From NCBI GenBank assembly GCA_021791455.1, contig JAJYWM010000289.1:1-5703 (forward strand): a stretch of DNA of 5,703 nucleotides, in the 5' to 3' direction. The position numbers were made by a program, and so were the translations under genes. The notes beneath the pieces are model-generated. The model did not search any database, was not told the DNA's origin, and saw only the letters and a list, made by a program, of their open reading frames with translations. The stretch comes from a bacterium (GTDB lineage Bacteria > Chloroflexota > Dormibacteria > UBA8260 > Bog-877). Shown here piece by piece: positions 1 to 5,703 of this stretch (position 1 is the first letter of the stretch; each line of letters begins with the position of its first letter).

Positions 1-23
1 ACGGAGGCTCTGCCTGAATGCGC

Positions 24-40
24 GTGAGCCAGTGGCTCAC
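24..40. repeat. Perfect 17-bp palindrome (8-1-8)
   Basis: GTGAGCCA and its exact reverse complement TGGCTCAC flank a single G. As DNA it looks like a binding site for a dimeric protein. As RNA it would fold as a 7-bp stem with an AGT loop. It starts one base before the last base of a TGA at 25-27, which may end an upstream gene, so it could also be a transcription terminator lacking a U-tract. Part of the left half recurs at 131-137 (GTGAGCC) as a half site. The function is unknown. Confidence 0.5.
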
Positions 41-315
41 ATGGGGCCAACGCGCCACCGTGGCGGGGCGGTCAGGCCCAGGTTCGGAAGGAGGCTTCAA
101 GATTCCCGCCATGCCAGCACTCGGCGGCGCGTGAGCCTCGTCGAGCTAGGCTATCGCCGGGACGGCCCTATGCTCGGGTTCCCGAACACATGCGCGTGGT
201 TTTCGCTTGACCACGTATCGGAACTGACCTAGATCTGATGCGCTGGATCATGTTGCCGAACCTGTGCTTGGCGAATGGTCCGGGGCGATGCGTGGTGGCC
301 GCGCCCAGGATCCGG

Positions 316-333
316 GCCTGTGTGGGCACAGGC
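316..333 (-). terminator. Probable hairpin terminator after the HARE-HTH gene
   Basis: GCCTGTG (316-322) and CACAGGC (327-333) are perfect complements around a four-base loop, giving a GC-rich 7-bp stem. It lies 43 bases past the stop codon of the minus-strand gene that ends at 377, where a terminator would be expected. There is no T-tract on the exit side in either direction, so it would be a hairpin-only terminator of the kind often proposed in high-GC bacteria. The alternative is a protein-binding palindrome. Confidence 0.45.
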
Positions 334-376
334 TGGAGTACAGGGGCTCGGGTTCCGCAATGATGCGAATAGCACG

Positions 377-781
377 TCAGGCAACTACCCTCCAATAGCC
401 CCTCCGACCGGGGACGTGCTGAAACCGGCTTGAGGAGCGTGACAGGGTGCGGAACAGGGTTGAGTAAGCGCTCTCGGAGCGCAGAAGCTTGCCCTCTTCT
501 TGTAGCAGGGGCACCATTTCGACTACGCGCATAGGCTTGCCTGAGCGACGCAAGCACGCCTCGGCGGCATCGGCGATGGAACCTACCGAGGCGGGATCTC
601 CCTGGCCCTCCACCCGCTGGAGGTGGTGGAGGTTGATCTCCGCAGTCCGAATCCTGGCGGCCAAGCCCCTCAGTTCCACGCGGTGAGCAGCGAGCGTCAT
701 TTCCAGCCGCTGCTGGCTCTGGCGGAGCTCAGCGAGCTGGCGTTCGAGCTGCTCGGTCTCATCTGCGCGCAAGAGTGGCAT
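377..781 (-). CDS. Coiled-coil plus HARE-HTH-like winged-helix protein
   Basis: A 134-residue protein. Residues about 6-58 form a heptad-rich, Glu/Gln/Leu/Arg-rich helix expected to be a coiled coil that dimerises the protein or binds a partner. Residues about 66-134 resemble a HARE-HTH winged helix: an Ala-rich first helix, the turn SGKPMRV, a second helix ending in EEGKLL, a helix with SAYSTLFRTL, and a C-terminal wing FQHVPGRRGYWRV. HARE-HTH domains occur in RNA polymerase delta subunits, ASXL proteins and restriction or modification proteins, usually as DNA-contacting or adaptor modules. The start is fixed by an in-frame stop at 794-796. No Shine-Dalgarno is seen before the ATG, but TAAACT (791-796, minus strand) sits 9 bases upstream, which fits a nearly leaderless mRNA. 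The gene diverges from the AAA+ gene, so it could be its regulator or a subunit of the same machine. The fold is a pattern-based call and the role is inferred. Confidence 0.7.
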   Translation of the reverse strand: MPLLRADETEQLERQLAELRQSQQRLEMTLAAHRVELRGLAARIRTAEINLHHLQRVEGQGDPASVGSIADAAEACLRRSGKPMRVVEMVPLLQEEGKLLRSESAYSTLFRTLSRSSSRFQHVPGRRGYWRVVA

Positions 782-882: not shown

Positions 883-2589
883 ATGGCACAGTGGGTGGTG
901 GAGGATTCCGGAGTTCAAGGCCCGCTGTCCGCGGTCTTGACCGATGATGTCTTTCTTCCTGGAGAGACCCACGTCATCACCGCTCACTGGGACGAGGAGG
1001 TCGCGGTTCTGGCGGCACTCCCTGGAGCCGACGGTCTGGTCGTGGTCCTTCCCAGGGCAGTTCATCACTCAGACGCCAGGCCGGCAATCGGCGTCCTGGC
1101 GGTGGCTGACGCCGTAGGTTCGGATGACTTCGGCCAGGTCCAGCGAGCCCGGCTGTTCGGGCTGAAACGGATCGAGGTCAGGTGCCTGTCCCGTCGCGGT
1201 GTCCTGCTGGTGGTCGAGATCAGCGAGATCGATGAGGGAGAGGCCACGGAGGCTGACCTGGGCCGTCTGCTGCGCCTGGCCCGTCGCGCTGCCAGGAGTG
1301 AGAGTCTCGGGAGCCGCTCCGGACTATCCCCAGAACTGGGAGAGAAGTCTCCGAGTCAGCTGGCGGACGCGCTTGCCGTGGAGCTCGGAGCGAGCGATGA
1401 GGCGCGACTGACGCTGCTGGGGGCGACAAAGTGGGTGGATCGGCTGCCAATCTTGGAGCAGCTCGCGAAACCGCGTCGGACACGGTTGCGCTCCCCGCGA
1501 GCCCGTCGGCCACGGAGCAGTGAAGCAGCGGACGAGCAGTTGCCGCCTGAGATCAGGAGGGCGGTCGAGAACTGTCTCGACGAGCCCGGAGGCGCGACCG
1601 AGGCGCCGGGCCGGGTGGCAGCTCGGGTGCTGCGGGAGCTGGTCTGGGAAGCGCCGCCAGCCCAGCCGGTGGACCTGGCCCGGGCTCGCCAGTTGCTGAA
1701 CGACAGCCACGCGGGCCTTGCGGAGGCCAAACGAGCCATCCTGGACCATCTGGTTGTTCTGGAGTGGCAGCGTCAGCGCGGCATACCACCGTCCGCTGGA
1801 CATGCACTGTGCCTGGTGGGACCGCCCGGGACTGGCAAGACCACGCTGGCCGCCAAGGTGGCAGAGGCGATGGGGCGGCGGCTCGAGCGGATTCCCCTTG
1901 GAGGCGTCGACGATGTCTCCCTCGTCGGGTCGGATCGCGCGTACCGGCACTCGCAGCCGGGAGAGATCGTGAGGCGGCTGCGAGCGGCCCAGGTCCACCC
2001 ATCTCAGGTCGTGTGGCTGCTGGACGAGATCGACAAGGCCTCCCGCTGGAGCGACCACACGGCGATCCCGGTGCTGCTGGCACTGCTGGACCCATCCCAG
2101 AACTCCGCGTGGCAGGACCGCTTCCTCGATGGAGTGTGCCTGGACCTGTCCGGATCCATGTTCATGGCCACCGCCAACGAGCTGGACGGGATTCCCAGCT
2201 CCCTGCGCGACCGGCTCCGGTGCGTGGAGGTTCCTGGATACTCATCCGCCGAACAGATCCAAATCGGAGTCGAGAAGCTGCTGCCCAAGCTGCTGAGCCA
2301 GTTGGGCGCTGACGGCGTGGTCGAGGTGGCGGAGTCCGCGCTGGGCTCCCTGGTCCTAGATCACCCACGGACTGTCGGTTGTCGACAGCTCGAGCAGCGC
2401 TTGCAGGTGGTGCTGGCCCGGGCGCTGGAACTCCACATGGATGGCGGCGGCCAAGTGACCGTGGATGCGCCAATCGCCAGGGCGTGGGTGCCTCCAGAGC
2501 GGTCGTCCGGGATCGGGTTCCAGTGGCAGGCGCGGCTGGACTCCGTGGCTGTGGCGCCTGGCGCGCTGTCCGTGGGCGTGGGCGACTGA
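883..2589 (+). CDS. Lon-like AAA+ ATPase lacking the protease domain
   Basis: A 568-residue protein that follows the architecture of Lon up to the end of its ATPase module. Residues about 12-118 resemble the Lon N-terminal (LAN) substrate-binding domain: VLTDDVFLPGETHVI, then VLPRAVHH, then an RIEVRCL strand. Residues about 155-300 are the helical linker, with SQLADALAVELG and DRLPILEQL as in Lon. The AAA+ core has Walker A GPPGTGKT (313-320), the Lon-type IPLGGVDDVSLVGS and PGEIVRRLR stretches, Walker B VVWLLDEIDK (376-385), sensor 1 MATAN (N432), an arginine finger (R444 in LRDRLRCVEVPGY) and sensor 2 (R501 in VGCRQLEQ). The chain stops about 35 residues after the lid, so the Ser-Lys protease domain of Lon (about 190 residues) is absent. 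No other frame downstream supplies it. The protein should therefore hydrolyse ATP and remodel or load a partner rather than degrade it. It starts at an ATG with a strong Shine-Dalgarno and heads the rightward gene set with the recombinase-like and transposase genes. Confidence 0.9.
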   Translation: MAQWVVEDSGVQGPLSAVLTDDVFLPGETHVITAHWDEEVAVLAALPGADGLVVVLPRAVHHSDARPAIGVLAVADAVGSDDFGQVQRARLFGLKRIEVRCLSRRGVLLVVEISEIDEGEATEADLGRLLRLARRAARSESLGSRSGLSPELGEKSPSQLADALAVELGASDEARLTLLGATKWVDRLPILEQLAKPRRTRLRSPRARRPRSSEAADEQLPPEIRRAVENCLDEPGGATEAPGRVAARVLRELVWEAPPAQPVDLARARQLLNDSHAGLAEAKRAILDHLVVLEWQRQRGIPPSAGHALCLVGPPGTGKTTLAAKVAEAMGRRLERIPLGGVDDVSLVGSDRAYRHSQPGEIVRRLRAAQVHPSQVVWLLDEIDKASRWSDHTAIPVLLALLDPSQNSAWQDRFLDGVCLDLSGSMFMATANELDGIPSSLRDRLRCVEVPGYSSAEQIQIGVEKLLPKLLSQLGADGVVEVAESALGSLVLDHPRTVGCRQLEQRLQVVLARALELHMDGGGQVTVDAPIARAWVPPERSSGIGFQWQARLDSVAVAPGALSVGVGD

Positions 2590-2693
2590 CGTGAGCGTTG
2601 AGATGCCCTGGGTCGGACTCCACTGCCAGGAGAGAGTTGACGAAATCGTTACATCGGGAGCTGGTTACTCGCGCGCACGTAATGCGGGGTCCG

Positions 2694-2726
2694 GAAGTCG
2701 ATTTGAGCCCTGGCGAAGTCATTTGA
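2694..2726 (+). repeat. Tandem direct repeats phased by two helical turns
   Basis: GAAGTCGATTTGA (2694-2706) recurs as GAAGTCATTTGA (2715-2726), identical apart from one deleted G. The starts are 21 bp apart, about two turns of B-DNA, so a protein bound to both would contact the same face. The second copy overlaps the candidate -35 box TTGACG (2723-2728). This is typical of activator or repressor sites, or of transposase-accessory binding sites. The repeat is seen directly; its role is inferred. Confidence 0.55.
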
Positions 2727-2751
2727 CGGGAGTCGCCGACTCTGTCACGAT
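2723..2751 (+). promoter_or_regulatory. Candidate promoter with embedded palindromic operator
   Basis: TTGACG (2723-2728) matches five of six bases of the -35 consensus and is followed after exactly 17 bases by CACGAT (2746-2751), which matches the -10 consensus at three positions. The spacer contains a perfect 13-bp palindrome, GAGTCG-C-CGACTC (2730-2742), positioned so that a bound dimer would block RNA polymerase. Transcription would begin near 2758-2760, directly before the ATG at 2761, implying a leaderless or nearly leaderless transcript for the small ORF and the genes after it. Confidence 0.45.
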
Positions 2752-2760
2752 CGTTGTGCC

Positions 2761-2895
2761 ATGTCGAGTACCACGATCACTTCAGGCGCCCCGAGACTGC
2801 TCGGGGAAGGCGAGCTTCTGCTCCAGCCTGGATTCGTGGCCAACCTCGGCTGCGGTGGGACCATCCGCCAGACAGGAGGCGGTTGCCGGGCGTAA
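2761..2895 (+). CDS. Possible small ORF or displaced N-terminus, 44 codons
   Basis: ATG at 2761 opens a 44-codon frame ending in TAA at 2893-2895. Its third-position GC (about 73% by hand count) is higher than that of the recombinase-like frame over the same bases (about 64%), and its composition looks protein-like (SGAPRLLGEGELLLQPGFVA, then GCGGTIRQTGG). It is not a recognised family. It begins just after a candidate promoter, and its stop lies 10 bases beyond the likely TTG start of the next gene, which would allow translational coupling. The alternatives are a leader peptide, or the true N-terminus of the recombinase-like protein displaced by a frameshift near 2885-2895. Confidence 0.35.
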   Translation: MSSTTITSGAPRLLGEGELLLQPGFVANLGCGGTIRQTGGGCRA

Positions 2896-3932
2896 CCGCA
2901 GGACTCCTCGCGGAGTCGGTGGCAGAGCTCATGGCTCTGCCTGAGGGAAACAAGTACCGCGAGGTGGCGGAGCGGTCGTACCGACCGCGGATCGCTCCTA
3001 TCGATGACCAGTGGGAGCGAGCCGTGCCACTGCTGGTAGAGATCCTGGCAGCTGACCCGAAGAGGTTTTCGCATAGTTCGCGACTCCTCGACGGGCGTCG
3101 GGCCGCCCTGGCCCGCCACATCTACTGGCTGGCTGGCGAGCACCCCCGCCAGCTCAATCCCGACTTCGCCCTTGACGAGGCGACGCTGGTGCGCTCCGCG
3201 CTGAACTCCGAGGGCCACACCACCGAGCGCTCCCAGACCAGCTACCGGAGCCAGGTTCGCTCTTTCCGGGCGGGCTTCCCCGAGCTGTTCCCAGTCCGTA
3301 CGCGCAAGCGCTCAGGTGGGTCTATCGCACCTCTGTCGGATGAGGACTTCGAGATCGCCTGGCAGGGAGCGTTCACTTTCCGCAGCGAGGCGACCTGTCG
3401 ATCCGTCCAAGCGATGCTTCTGCTGGCCCGTGGGGCTGGCGTGGACGGCGTGGAGGCTCGCTACCTTGCCGGTACCGATGTGGAGCGCAAGCCAGGGGCC
3501 GGCCTCTGGGTGCGGATCGACGCTGGGCGGCGCACGCGGGAAGTCCCGGTGCTGGCCAGGTTCCAGGCGGACCTGGAGTGCCTGGCGAAGTTGGCCGGGA
3601 GCGGTCCCGTGATCGGTGGCGGCTCGGTGCCGGCCCCGTTTGGGCGGCCCAACGAGCTGAGCGACATGCTCAAGCGCCGCCTCCGACCCATGCATCCCGA
3701 CTTCGAGATCTCGTGTGTGCGGCTGCGCAAGGCATGGGTGCTGGAACAGCTCAGCCACTGGCCGGAGCTGCATATCTTCCTACGGGCAACCGGCCTCAAG
3801 TCGATGCACGGCCTGGAGGATCTGGTGGCTCGCTGCCCGGTGGTGCCGGAGGATGCGGCTCAGGAGGCTGAGACCCTCGGCGGCATTCACCCAGCGCCGG
3901 AGTTTGCCTACGACCGCGGAGCCGTGGGCTGA
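2883..3932 (+). CDS. Tyrosine-recombinase-fold protein, catalytically dead
   Basis: About 349 residues from a TTG start at 2883. That start is preceded by a perfect AGGAGG (2874-2879), though only three bases away. The frame is open back to a TTG at 2754 and ATG 2931 is another option; residues before position 4 look like out-of-frame text. Residues about 113-137 (TSYRSQVRSFRAGFPELFP) resemble a core-binding domain. The rest follows a tyrosine-recombinase catalytic domain: LLLARGAGVDGVEARYL (179-195), a beta hairpin RIDAGRRTREVPV (211-223), VRLRKAWVLEQL (279-290) and TGLKSMHGLEDLV (303-315). Against the canonical residues, Arg I is Asp188, Lys is Arg217, the His of HxxR is Val279, Arg II is kept (Arg282), the His of LGH is Leu305 and the nucleophilic Tyr is Leu314. 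It should bind DNA or form a scaffold but not cut. Its stop overlaps the transposase ATG by one base (TGATG), so the two are probably made together. Confidence 0.7.
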   Translation: MPGVTAGLLAESVAELMALPEGNKYREVAERSYRPRIAPIDDQWERAVPLLVEILAADPKRFSHSSRLLDGRRAALARHIYWLAGEHPRQLNPDFALDEATLVRSALNSEGHTTERSQTSYRSQVRSFRAGFPELFPVRTRKRSGGSIAPLSDEDFEIAWQGAFTFRSEATCRSVQAMLLLARGAGVDGVEARYLAGTDVERKPGAGLWVRIDAGRRTREVPVLARFQADLECLAKLAGSGPVIGGGSVPAPFGRPNELSDMLKRRLRPMHPDFEISCVRLRKAWVLEQLSHWPELHIFLRATGLKSMHGLEDLVARCPVVPEDAAQEAETLGGIHPAPEFAYDRGAVG

Positions 3933-5629
3933 TGGACCCCAAGCTTCTGTACGAGGTAAGTGAGCGCCTGGGAGCCAGGACCTTCGCCTTCCTCCGAGAG
4001 CTGGATCGGGCGATCAAGCCAGAGCGGGGCGTGGCCTTGTTGCCGAGTCGAGTCTTGGTGATCGGTGGCATTTGCCTCGGGGATGAGCCAGGTCCGAAGA
4101 CGATCACCCACCTGGCTAAGATGATGGCTCGCGCCAACCAGGGCCAGCTCCACATGCTCTACGGGACCTCGGCGGGTCCGGCCCACGATCCTGGCCCTGA
4201 ATTGAAGCCACCCAGCGAGGCGCAGCTGTACCGGCTCTTCGACGCCATGGCGACGGTCCTGGGCAAGCAGCACCGGCCGCGGGAGCTCGAGGGTTTGACG
4301 GGCAAGAGGCTGGAGGCTTCCAAGCGCCTCTGGGAGCGGCGGGTGAGGCGGGCGCGAGAGCTTCTGCGCACCGACAACGACCTGGACACTCAGATCGCGC
4401 TGTCGATCCACCTCCTGGAGGACACGGCGCCGCCGCAGCCCGAGGGGGTGGCGCACACGACGGACACGACCGAGATAGAGGCGGACTGCCGCCCGATCTC
4501 CCAGGCGAGGCTGAAGCGCGGGGAGCGTGCGGCCGACGGCGACGCCAGACATCGCGTCCACAAGAGGGGCGATCGGGACCAGGACGCGCCGGGAGAGCGG
4601 GAGCGGAGGAAGAAGCGGAAGGAAGACGGAGCCAAGCCAAGTACGGATCACTACTTCGGCTTCGGCGACGACGTCATCGGCGGGACTGCCGACAACGCCA
4701 GCTACGTCTACGCCCATGCCCTGTTCGGGGCCAATGCATACGACGTCCCGGTGTCGGTGAGGCTGGTGGAGCAGCTCCTGGCCCGCGGCCACGGGGTTAC
4801 GGAGCTCATCGGCGACCGAGGGTTCAGCCAGGACACCAAGTGGATGGCCGGGCTGCGGGACCTCGGCGTGATGGGGGTCTTCGACCTGAAGTCGACTCAG
4901 ATGCACACCTTCCCGACCTGGAGGGGCTGCCTCATGCTCCCGAGCGGGGTGTACCTGCCGATGCTTCCCGAGCGGCTGTGGCTGATCGAGCGACCGGGTC
5001 CGCAGGCTCCGCCGGAAAAGAAGGCGGCCTACCGCAAGGCGATCGAGGAGCGGTCCATCTACGCCCTGGTGGCGCACGGCAAGCCGACACCGGGCCAGGT
5101 GCGGCTCAGCTCGCCGGTGCTGCGGCGCAAGAGTCAGCACGCCCTGGGCTGTCCCAAGGTGCCGGTCTCGATGCGCCGCCGGGACCCCAGTCTACCGGTC
5201 TGCGATGGCAACCACGGCGACGACGAGGCGTGCTGCATCAAGACCGCCACCCTGAGGGCCGAGGAGATCCCGAGCATCTTCCAGTTCCCCTTCTGGGGCA
5301 GCCCCGAGTGGGAGGAGAAGTACGCCAAGCGCACCAACGTGGAGCGGGGCTTCTCAAGTCTCAAGAACCCGGACGTGATCGGTCTTACCAAGGGCCAGTT
5401 CCACTACCGGCACATCCCCAACGTGGCCCTGCTGGTCACGTTCATGTGGGGCGCCCACAACCTCCACCTCTGGATGAAGCGGGAGGAGGACGCCGCCAGG
5501 GCGGCAGCGGCCATATTGCGCAAGCACCGGCTCCTGCCGCGGCGGAGCTCCCAGGTGGCCGTGGTGCTGGACCCGGGCTCCACCCTCCTTGAGGAGCCGG
5601 CGCCGGCCGAGGACTCCCCGGCGCCGTAG
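3932..5629 (+). CDS. IS4-superfamily DDE transposase
   Basis: A 565-residue protein that should carry out strand cleavage and transfer as an RNase H-fold DDE transposase. The first Asp is D178 in TTDTTEIEA, the second is D295 in ELIGDRGFSQD, and the Glu is E471 within a perfect Y-(2)-R-(3)-E-(6)-K signature (Y464, R467, E471, K478), the hallmark of the IS4 superfamily. The triad is intact, so the enzyme may be active. Residues about 194-237 form a very basic, probably disordered linker with an RRKKRK run. Between D295 and E471 lies a long insertion with a Cys/His cluster (C407, C424, H428, C434, C435) that may bind zinc. The tail after about 517 is Ala/Arg- then Pro/Glu-rich. The ATG overlaps the stop of the recombinase-like gene, with only a weak GGAG at 3918-3921, so translation is likely coupled. 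This argues that it is a fixed partner of the upstream genes rather than a random insertion. No matching IS terminal repeats are evident at its immediate borders. Confidence 0.88.
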   Translation: MDPKLLYEVSERLGARTFAFLRELDRAIKPERGVALLPSRVLVIGGICLGDEPGPKTITHLAKMMARANQGQLHMLYGTSAGPAHDPGPELKPPSEAQLYRLFDAMATVLGKQHRPRELEGLTGKRLEASKRLWERRVRRARELLRTDNDLDTQIALSIHLLEDTAPPQPEGVAHTTDTTEIEADCRPISQARLKRGERAADGDARHRVHKRGDRDQDAPGERERRKKRKEDGAKPSTDHYFGFGDDVIGGTADNASYVYAHALFGANAYDVPVSVRLVEQLLARGHGVTELIGDRGFSQDTKWMAGLRDLGVMGVFDLKSTQMHTFPTWRGCLMLPSGVYLPMLPERLWLIERPGPQAPPEKKAAYRKAIEERSIYALVAHGKPTPGQVRLSSPVLRRKSQHALGCPKVPVSMRRRDPSLPVCDGNHGDDEACCIKTATLRAEEIPSIFQFPFWGSPEWEEKYAKRTNVERGFSSLKNPDVIGLTKGQFHYRHIPNVALLVTFMWGAHNLHLWMKREEDAARAAAAILRKHRLLPRRSSQVAVVLDPGSTLLEEPAPAEDSPAP

Positions 5630-5639
5630 GCGTCGCCGG
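5618..5639 (+). terminator. GC hairpin over the transposase stop codon
   Basis: CCGGCG (5618-5623) and CGCCGG (5634-5639) are perfect complements around a 10-base loop containing the stop codon TAG (5627-5629). There is no T-tract. In DNA this rich in G and C such a short stem can arise by chance, so it is only a weak terminator candidate. Confidence 0.25.
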
Positions 5640-5658
5640 CACCCTTTCCACCGACCAG

Positions 5659-5677
5659 GATCCAAGCTTCCTGGATC
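5659..5677. repeat. Inverted repeat after the transposase gene
   Basis: GATCCA (5659-5664) and TGGATC (5672-5677) flank a seven-base loop. An alternative fold pairs CCAGGA (5655-5660) with TCCTGG (5669-5674). It lies 30 bases past the transposase stop and could be part of a terminator or of the right end of a mobile element. There is no following T-tract. Confidence 0.35.
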
Positions 5678-5703
5678 AAGCGCGCCCTGAGGCAGGCCCA
5701 ACC

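Follow-up and report, generated by a model that had tools for sequence, protein, structure and literature searches.

The window, a stretch of 5,703 nucleotides, is best read from its sequence as the transposition module of a mobile element in uncultured Dormibacteria, whose gene set it holds for the most part. The element is probably a homing transposon that works like Tn7, in which a tyrosine-recombinase-like protein (INT) would serve as target selector, a protease-less Lon-type AAA+ protein (the ATPase) as regulator and a DDE_Tnp_1/IS1182-like protein (TNP) as transposase (Table 1). A sequence-only reading had proposed a new three-gene transposition system here; a new multi-component system is supported, but the element is larger than three genes.

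Table 1. Features of the window
Feature	Position	Strand	Remarks
Left variable part of element, probably cargo	1..376	.	No left end in window
Divergent 134-aa ORF	377..781	-	Coiled coil; C-terminus weakly like HARE-HTH; fourth conserved module gene
Lon-type AAA+ ATPase, 568 aa	883..2589	+	Degenerate Lon N-domain, no protease domain; proposed TnsC-like regulator
INT, tyrosine-recombinase-like, lacking Arg-I and Tyr	2883..3932	+	Proposed target selector/adaptor
TNP, DDE transposase (DDE_Tnp_1/IS1182-like), 565 aa	3932..5629	+	Putative triad D178, D295, E471
Right transposon end, inner part	5620..5703	+	nhmmer match to right-end model

The gene module and its Lon-type ATPase

The ORF list of the window holds the three genes on one strand, with INT in a frame that runs from 2754 to 3932. 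Because INT homologues begin at MPGV or LPGV or later, the INT start is most likely the TTG at 2883 (349 aa) and not 2754. The three genes are intact and are kept as a set in Dormibacteria relatives; the one-base overlap of INT and TNP, as first described, is also real, the INT stop and TNP start sharing TGATG at 3930–3934. All ORFs of the window are intact with dN below dS, and the ATPase compared with L008 and L094 gives a dN of 0.10 and a dS of 0.42–0.43. Identity of the window with L008 starts at position 236 and with L094 at 398. The divergent 134-aa gene is present in all six ATPase-bearing loci compared, namely the window and L001, L007, L008, L009 and L094 (41–91% identity to the window copy), and dN is below dS in 15 of 15 pairs. 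Its product is probably a regulator; a HARE-HTH match of 15 bits, below the cut-off, is found for the copies of the window and L008 and not for those of L094 and L009.

The AAA+ part of the ATPase matches the Lon profile TIGR00763 with 195.5 bits (query residues 250–513, profile positions 302–559 of 795). The full-length Lon equivalog score of 608 bits is not reached, as only the AAA+ part matches, and traces of the Lon N-domain score 19.1 bits, below the cut-off. Among the 120 matches listed of 1307 ATPase relatives, the Lon protease domain (PF05362) is found in none of the 77 short relatives (P0064–P0140) and in all 43 of Lon length (P0141–P0183). The nucleotide motifs are intact, as had been stated: the columns that we take to be Walker A, Walker B, sensor 1 and the Arg finger are conserved in 40 aligned rows, with P0119, whose Walker A is broken, as the exception. 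In the Pfam search of the window ATPase, an IstB-type match scored 12.8 bits against a cut-off of 24.1. Nor is a TnsC/TniB type indicated, the best families being AAA and Lon, with no TniB among the best 25 of 34 Pfam matches.

The order ATPase, INT, TNP, together with the divergent 134-aa gene, is kept in all five Dormibacteria genomes that carry a close homologue of the ATPase (at least 694 bits); none of three more distant ATPases (408–492 bits) precedes INT and TNP, and distant relatives occur in other settings (L091–L093). INT lies directly upstream of TNP in eight of the nine loci that hold the TNP start and at least 0.5 kb of upstream sequence (the miss is L011), and the ATPase is present in five of the seven TNP loci with at least 3 kb upstream (the misses are L010 and L100). 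Locus L100 was rejected as an ATPase-less counterexample, being a cut copy whose likeness to L096 begins only at about INT residue 15. Locus L010 carries INT and TNP with no ATPase within 6.9 kb, apart from a fragmentary match of 26.5 bits on the opposite strand, and L011 holds a decayed relative of the L010 TNP without INT. Two patterns that would have spoken against a joint system, a transposase found mostly alone as an ordinary insertion sequence and an ATPase found mostly without the transposase, are not borne out by these counts.

In the protein lists (32 TNP, 31 INT and 77 ATPase), putative shared contigs, to be taken as a hint only, number five for TNP and INT, four for TNP and ATPase, three for INT and ATPase and one for all three.

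Modules are swapped without the genes parting, at breakpoints that fall within INT and near the end of the ATPase. Between L001 and L009, ATPase identity is 96% and TNP identity 44%; between L001 and L094, conversely, TNP identity is 98% (over 339 aa) and ATPase identity 47%. Such differing histories of ATPase and TNP, the retention of INT and TNP without the ATPase in L010 and the existence of distant ATPase relatives without INT or TNP would all suit a variant of the same homing transposon, in which the HTH–ATPase pair is cargo (serving, e.g., defence or regulation) and INT with TNP, or TNP alone, chooses and joins the target. This variant is unlikely, given that the ATPase lies directly upstream of INT in all five close loci and that L011, with its relative of the L010 TNP, is decayed. 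In two pairs (the window with L008, and L001 with L096), moreover, the shared stretch comprises the ATPase and the N-terminal part of INT and ends within INT, which fits a contact between the two proteins, although chance breakpoints would look alike.

INT and the transposase

Searches of INT against Pfam, NCBIfam and PDB sequences gave nothing significant (the closest PDB match is one peptide with a not meaningful E of 0.24), and there is no HMMER match to PF00589; with a local recombinase HMM, INT members scored no more than about 11 bits. Profile–profile alignment with tyrosine recombinases (hhalign) gave no meaningful match with a set of nine recombinase sequences and a match with 30 rows. 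The score was 34.3, which none of 200 column shuffles equalled (best 21.4), and the reversed profile reached 16.3. The alignment stays in register across 148–152 columns of the core-binding and catalytic domains, at a probability of just 22–27%, the aligned part being the N-terminal domain and the first half of the catalytic domain. Asp occupies the Arg-I position in all 30 rows, no conserved Tyr lies near the C-terminus, and the active site R-K-HxxR-H/W-Y of active tyrosine recombinases is not found in INT, its HxxR and Tyr positions having been placed by eye where the profile match had already ended. The proposed integrase fold is supported by the profile–profile match, and its lack of catalytic residues by the missing first catalytic Arg and Tyr; INT is best read from these alignments as an inactivated tyrosine-recombinase-like protein. 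That it is instead an unrelated helical DNA-binding adaptor, with the rest of the model standing, would agree with the HMMER, PDB and recombinase HMM results, the low hhalign probability and the outcome with nine recombinases; it is quite unlikely in the face of a score above all 200 shuffles and the reversed profile and of the long alignment in register.

TNP matches DDE_Tnp_1 with 20.7 bits, below the cut-off of 23, and 21 of 26 TNP alignment members match this family at E ≤ 0.01. At that threshold, TNP and its relatives match DDE_Tnp_1, DDE_Tnp_1_6, DDE_5 and HTH_67 only, and no rve-type TnsB transposase family. The putative catalytic triad, already described as intact, is kept in 26, 25 and 26 of the 26 members at its three positions. 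The IS1182 profile NF033551 gives TNP 28.9 bits, far below its cut-off of 270, and a PDB search by sequence gave nothing meaningful (best E 0.29). A plasmid origin was considered and rejected, the one match having 28.5% identity over 45% of TNP, on a Streptomyces clavuligerus plasmid. A viral origin was also rejected, one scan of viral_contigs having given no relatives, and no Rfam family reached the gathering threshold in nine sources.

Element ends and insertion beside nrdJ

Comparison of insertion sites, which had been proposed as a check, yielded element ends, one target duplication and a fixed target. In the Dormibacteria clade, each of the 11 host nrdJ 3' ends that could be read (L001, L002, L004, L005, L007, L008, L009, L012, G331, G005:C159 and G330:C196) is joined, 3–4 bp from the stop codon, to the right end of the element, which lies 160–220 bp beyond TNP and points to nrdJ in every junction read. 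The target gene, which encodes class II ribonucleotide reductase, was identified in L008 by NCBIfam NF005122 (1448 bits). The site is shared despite transposases down to 43% identity and different outer tips (GAGGGT..TTGCGA or GAGCC..TTGGCGA). In the window, 5702–5620 corresponds to positions 148–230 of the 230-bp right-end model, the outer right tip of relatives lying about 147 bp beyond the window's stop, and a search for the left end gave no match inside the window. Because the window lacks both outer ends, we infer its own target from its relatives.

The left end is about 130 bp, and tandem arrays occur in L003, L006, L001 and G004. In G004, the sole element with both ends read, a 5-bp duplication is seen: CGGTC stands beside both ends of an element of about 27 kb with metal-handling cargo, its left copy adjoining an older right end. 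CGATC occurs at two L001 junctions, which are separated by a further right end and an ATPase fragment in reverse orientation, and the spacers of the L003 and L006 arrays are not alike (TCGTC, CCATC, CAGTT and CGCTC).

The clade yielded no nrdJ site without an insertion, and the case for movement therefore rests on the arrays, the two transposase types, module exchange and the one 5-bp pair. Together with the occupied site at every readable nrdJ end and the numerous truncated copies, this absence would also suit an old single insertion at nrdJ, inherited in the clade and now decaying or domesticated, with site specificity by descent. The two transposase types, each with its own tips, imply at least two changes on the nrdJ tree, in which 9 of 14 rows are labelled, although 84–86 of 500 label shuffles are as good as the real labels. 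Tandem arrays with full ends, the 5-bp repeat flanking one element, modules of 96–98% identity next to those of 44–47%, and the intact window ORFs with dN below dS likewise make descent from one insertion very improbable. An ordinary IS1182/IS4-like insertion sequence whose neighbours are accidental, to which the weak IS1182 and DDE_Tnp_1 similarity of TNP might point, is effectively ruled out by the gene co-occurrence (INT upstream of eight in nine TNP starts) and the fixed site, and also by the span between the G004 ends and the low IS1182 score.

A divergent branch (INT 40–42%, TNP 34–40%) lies beside a nickel superoxide dismutase (Ni-SOD) gene, and both of its known copies may go back to a single old insertion. 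Target choice may be due to INT or to TNP, between which these data do not discriminate.

Proposed mechanism and comparison with known systems

In the homing transposon that we favor, TNP would bind the asymmetric multi-site ends, insert the element and leave the 5-bp duplication. INT, its catalysis lost, would bind the conserved 3' end of the nrdJ coding sequence and recruit the Lon-type AAA+ ring, which would in turn license insertion by TNP just beyond the nrdJ stop, with the right end toward the gene. Since the right end would lie just past the stop codon, the host gene would be spared. The cargo would fill the stretch from the left end to the divergent 134-aa gene. Contacts of TNP with the ends, of INT with the target and of the ATPase with both INT and TNP are predicted, as is a need for each protein. 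The earlier idea of a multi-component transposition system is supported by the ends, the fixed target and the co-occurrence of the genes; that the ATPase and INT choose its targets is put forward as a model.

There is about an even chance that the element is an independently evolved counterpart of Tn7, with a peptidase-less Lon as regulator, an IS1182-like enzyme paired with it, and a tyrosine recombinase, now dead, serving as an exchangeable address reader for conserved gene ends (nrdJ, Ni-SOD). If so, AAA+-gated targeted transposition would have arisen more than once from unrelated parts, and general rules (a ring, a selector, multi-site ends and a safe site past a gene) could be tested by comparison. 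It would also be the first transposition role for a Lon-type ATPase, as far as listings and abstracts in the open-licence literature show, and one more case of an inactive tyrosine recombinase taken up as a selector; the system would be a compact candidate for placing large DNA at chosen sites.

Tn7 encodes TnsA, TnsB and TnsC with TniQ/TnsD, combining an AAA+ protein, a DDE enzyme and a selector; it inserts at attTn7, past glmS, with a 5-bp duplication. The Dormibacteria element resembles it in large cargo, asymmetric ends, a 5-bp duplication and single-orientation homing past a conserved gene, as at all 11 nrdJ junctions, and, if the ATPase and INT act as proposed, in joining an AAA+ protein and a DDE enzyme with a selector. 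It differs in having a DDE_Tnp_1/IS1182-like TNP and not an rve-type TnsB, a Lon-type AAA+ protein and not TnsC, and tandem copies that accumulate. TniQ (PF06527) was found over the cut-off in 0 of 15 genomes and likewise in none of 14 control genomes, so that this search has no positive control; a weak match in G002 scored 22.7 bits (cut-off 27).

According to its published description, TnsF of Tn6022, a transposon with DDE and AAA+ proteins, is an inactivated target selector derived from a tyrosine recombinase; it has 498 aa, combines zinc fingers at its N-terminus with two core-binding domains and part of a catalytic domain, and acts with TniQ, the target of Tn6022 being comM (PMC10293859). 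INT is like TnsF, as portrayed there, in its inactivated tyrosine recombinase domain, and differs in its 349 aa, in having no TniQ partner found and in an element beside nrdJ rather than comM. A dead tyrosine recombinase as adaptor, at first called unusual, thus has a precedent as target selector in what that source reports of TnsF (PMC10293859).

With IS1182/IS4-type elements, the Dormibacteria element shares a transposase of the DDE_Tnp_1 kind, but its TNP comes with three partner genes, long cargo and a fixed target. IS21 (IstA/IstB) and Mu (MuA/MuB) also pair a DDE enzyme with an AAA+ partner; neither is known to have a separate selector, and the ATPase, in contrast to theirs, is closest to Lon, with just the low IstB score given above. 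With Lon proteases, finally, the ATPase has in common the AAA+ domain and the sub-threshold traces of the Lon N-domain, whereas its 77 listed short relatives have no protease domain and its genetic setting is a transposon.

The three-gene module and its relatives

The window carries a module of three same-strand genes beside a divergent ORF. The ATPase matches Lon only over its AAA+ part (195.5 bits), and among the 120 rows listed the Lon protease domain is absent from the short relatives (0/77) and present in all Lon-length ones (43/43). The D, D and E of the putative triad in TNP, a DDE transposase (DDE_Tnp_1/IS1182-like), are kept in 26, 25 and 26 of 26 alignment members, respectively. Against tyrosine recombinases (30 rows, drawn from loci found in this analysis), INT scores 34.3 in hhalign (E 0.0007, probability 27%); the alignment stays in register through the core-binding domain and half-way into the catalytic domain. 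As controls, the best of 200 shuffled profiles scores 21.4 and the reversed profile 16.3; the TNP and ATPase profiles reach 21.8 and 19.9. The Arg-I position of INT is Asp in 30/30, and the alignment has no conserved Tyr column in the C-terminal region. Just 5' of the likely INT start, the DNA at 2852–2883, possibly a promoter or translation signal, is conserved with loci L001 and L094 though outside INT.

Conserved open reading frames of the window
Feature	Position	Strand	Type
134-aa ORF, divergent	377–781	minus	conserved ORF
Lon-type AAA+ ATPase	883–2589	plus	conserved ORF
INT, integrase-like	frame open from 2754, start most likely TTG 2883, end 3932	plus	conserved ORF
TNP, DDE transposase	3932–5629	plus	conserved ORF

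A large protein set, searched with scoring limited to the best word-sharing candidates, holds 32 homologues of TNP and 31 of INT; seven of the nine organism-named rows are Dormibacteria bins, the other labels being Micrarchaeaceae and Nanopelagicaceae. Scanned once with the TNP profile, the genome collection gives 13 loci. Within the class (110 genomes, centre G002), TNP is present in 12 genomes, in several as fragments, and INT in 8. In a phylum sample of 301 genomes, TNP matches in 9 and INT in 5, including three and one, respectively, with only weak matches (E 5e-5 to 5e-4). INT lies upstream of TNP in 8/9 loci that cover the start of TNP plus the preceding 0.5 kb, and the ATPase in 5/7 that extend 3 kb upstream. 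In the class genomes, all five ATPase places of at least 694 bits have INT and TNP downstream on the same strand, as do none of the three at 408–492 bits; the remaining places, among the matches listed, reach at most 319 bits and are mostly Lon-length open frames. In G001 and G007, intact copies are accompanied by ATPase fragments, two in all. At L096, an N-terminal piece of a second ATPase (9098–9685; 72% to the window ATPase over residues 18–160) lies directly upstream of the intact one, with recombination or tandem insertion as candidate readings. A distant ATPase relative at L091 (7099–8886, minus) has another setting, beside what we take, by eye, to be a RusA-like gene and type I restriction genes.

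Element ends and insertion sites

The sequence 3' of TNP is conserved between elements over ~160–220 bp, with a G+C-rich hairpin inside, and its tips read ..CGCAAGACCCTC or ..CGCCAAAGGCTC or close variants. In 11/11 readable cases the stop codon of nrdJ, the host class II ribonucleotide reductase gene, which reads towards the element, lies 3–4 bp beyond this right end. The nrdJ flank is unreadable in G294, whose contig breaks off at the stop codon, as well as in G157, G334, G245 and G008, whose match stops short of the C-terminus. No such right end was seen by eye in 16 nrdJ flanks outside the clade. A second target is seen at L010 (G008) and L011 (G005), where a nickel superoxide dismutase gene (Sod_Ni, 166 and 169 bits) ends 13 bp before the right end. 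The two loci agree at 90% across TNP and this gene and at 73–77% in most of the other long alignments, and so may stem from a single insertion. The L011 TNP carries a stop, and INT is not detectable there.

At L003, L006, L001 and in G004, a right end is followed after ~5 bp by a conserved left end of ~130 bp that starts GAGGGT or close to it. In G004, CGGTC and an older right end precede the left end at C17:106430, and the nrdJ-side right end, on contig C74, has CGGTC after it; with C17 and C74 as neighbours, the element would span ~27 kb. Counting against this, array spacers in L003 (where one of three junctions is too decayed to yield a spacer) and L006 are not alike. At ~2.3 kb each, the tandem units of L003 (1878–4193 and 4204–6587) have both ends but no room for all of the genes; they are arrayed non-autonomous copies or deletion derivatives. 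In L006, three transposase 3' ends, all truncated and pointing the same way (6166–6954, 11025–11582 and 14122–14502), two with a complete and one with a partial right end, are the remains of repeated insertions. A reversed ATPase fragment in L001 (2568–3017, minus) abuts an internal right end, an arrangement at odds with a simple tandem array.

Module exchange and cargo

Identity between the window and L008 falls from 91% (134-aa gene) and 82% (ATPase) to 58% (INT) and 43% (TNP). L001 and L009 share 96% in the ATPase, 59% in INT and 44% in TNP, and L001 and L094 share 99% in INT, 98% in TNP (339 aa present) and 47% in the ATPase. Shared stretches break near the ATPase end and at about INT residues 99 and 210. 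On the nrdJ tree (9/14 rows labelled, by the analyst), transposase type requires at least two changes; shuffled labels need as few in 84–86 of 500 shuffles, and therefore the result shows change, not clustering. Among the loci compared, tips go with transposase type and the nrdJ site is unchanged.

Among the products of eight ORFs scanned in the G004 cargo are a metal-sensitive repressor, an ArsP_1/YHS permease and a heavy-metal-binding domain protein, together with a two-component pair and Rieske, YkuD and DUF3800 proteins. Left of the G007 module, L096 (3968–7402, minus) encodes a 1144-aa protein with an N6 DNA methylase domain, a possible defence cargo.

A proposed homing transposon and its precedents

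In the portions available of a mostly open-access literature, no source was found that joins a transposon, a Lon-like ATPase, a tyrosine recombinase and a DDE transposase, and the best 15 of 49 partial matches lack the Lon term. IS1182 is absent from such literature on AAA+ proteins, selectors and Tn7, and nrdJ was not found in the Tn7 literature searched, likewise mostly open-access and available in part. The best 10 of 13 sources on ribonucleotide reductase and TniQ mention no such site in title or abstract start. For Dormibacterota and transposons, the sole match in the mostly open-access text available is a soil resistome survey.

We read the whole system as a homing transposon. TNP would cut and join the element, a role supported by the ends, the CGGTC duplication and the triad. 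From gene order, fold and the precedent of TnsF, we infer that INT would read the nrdJ end and that the ATPase would couple TNP and INT. The precedent for INT as selector is the target selector of Tn6022, TnsF, an inactivated tyrosine-recombinase-derived protein (PMC10293859).
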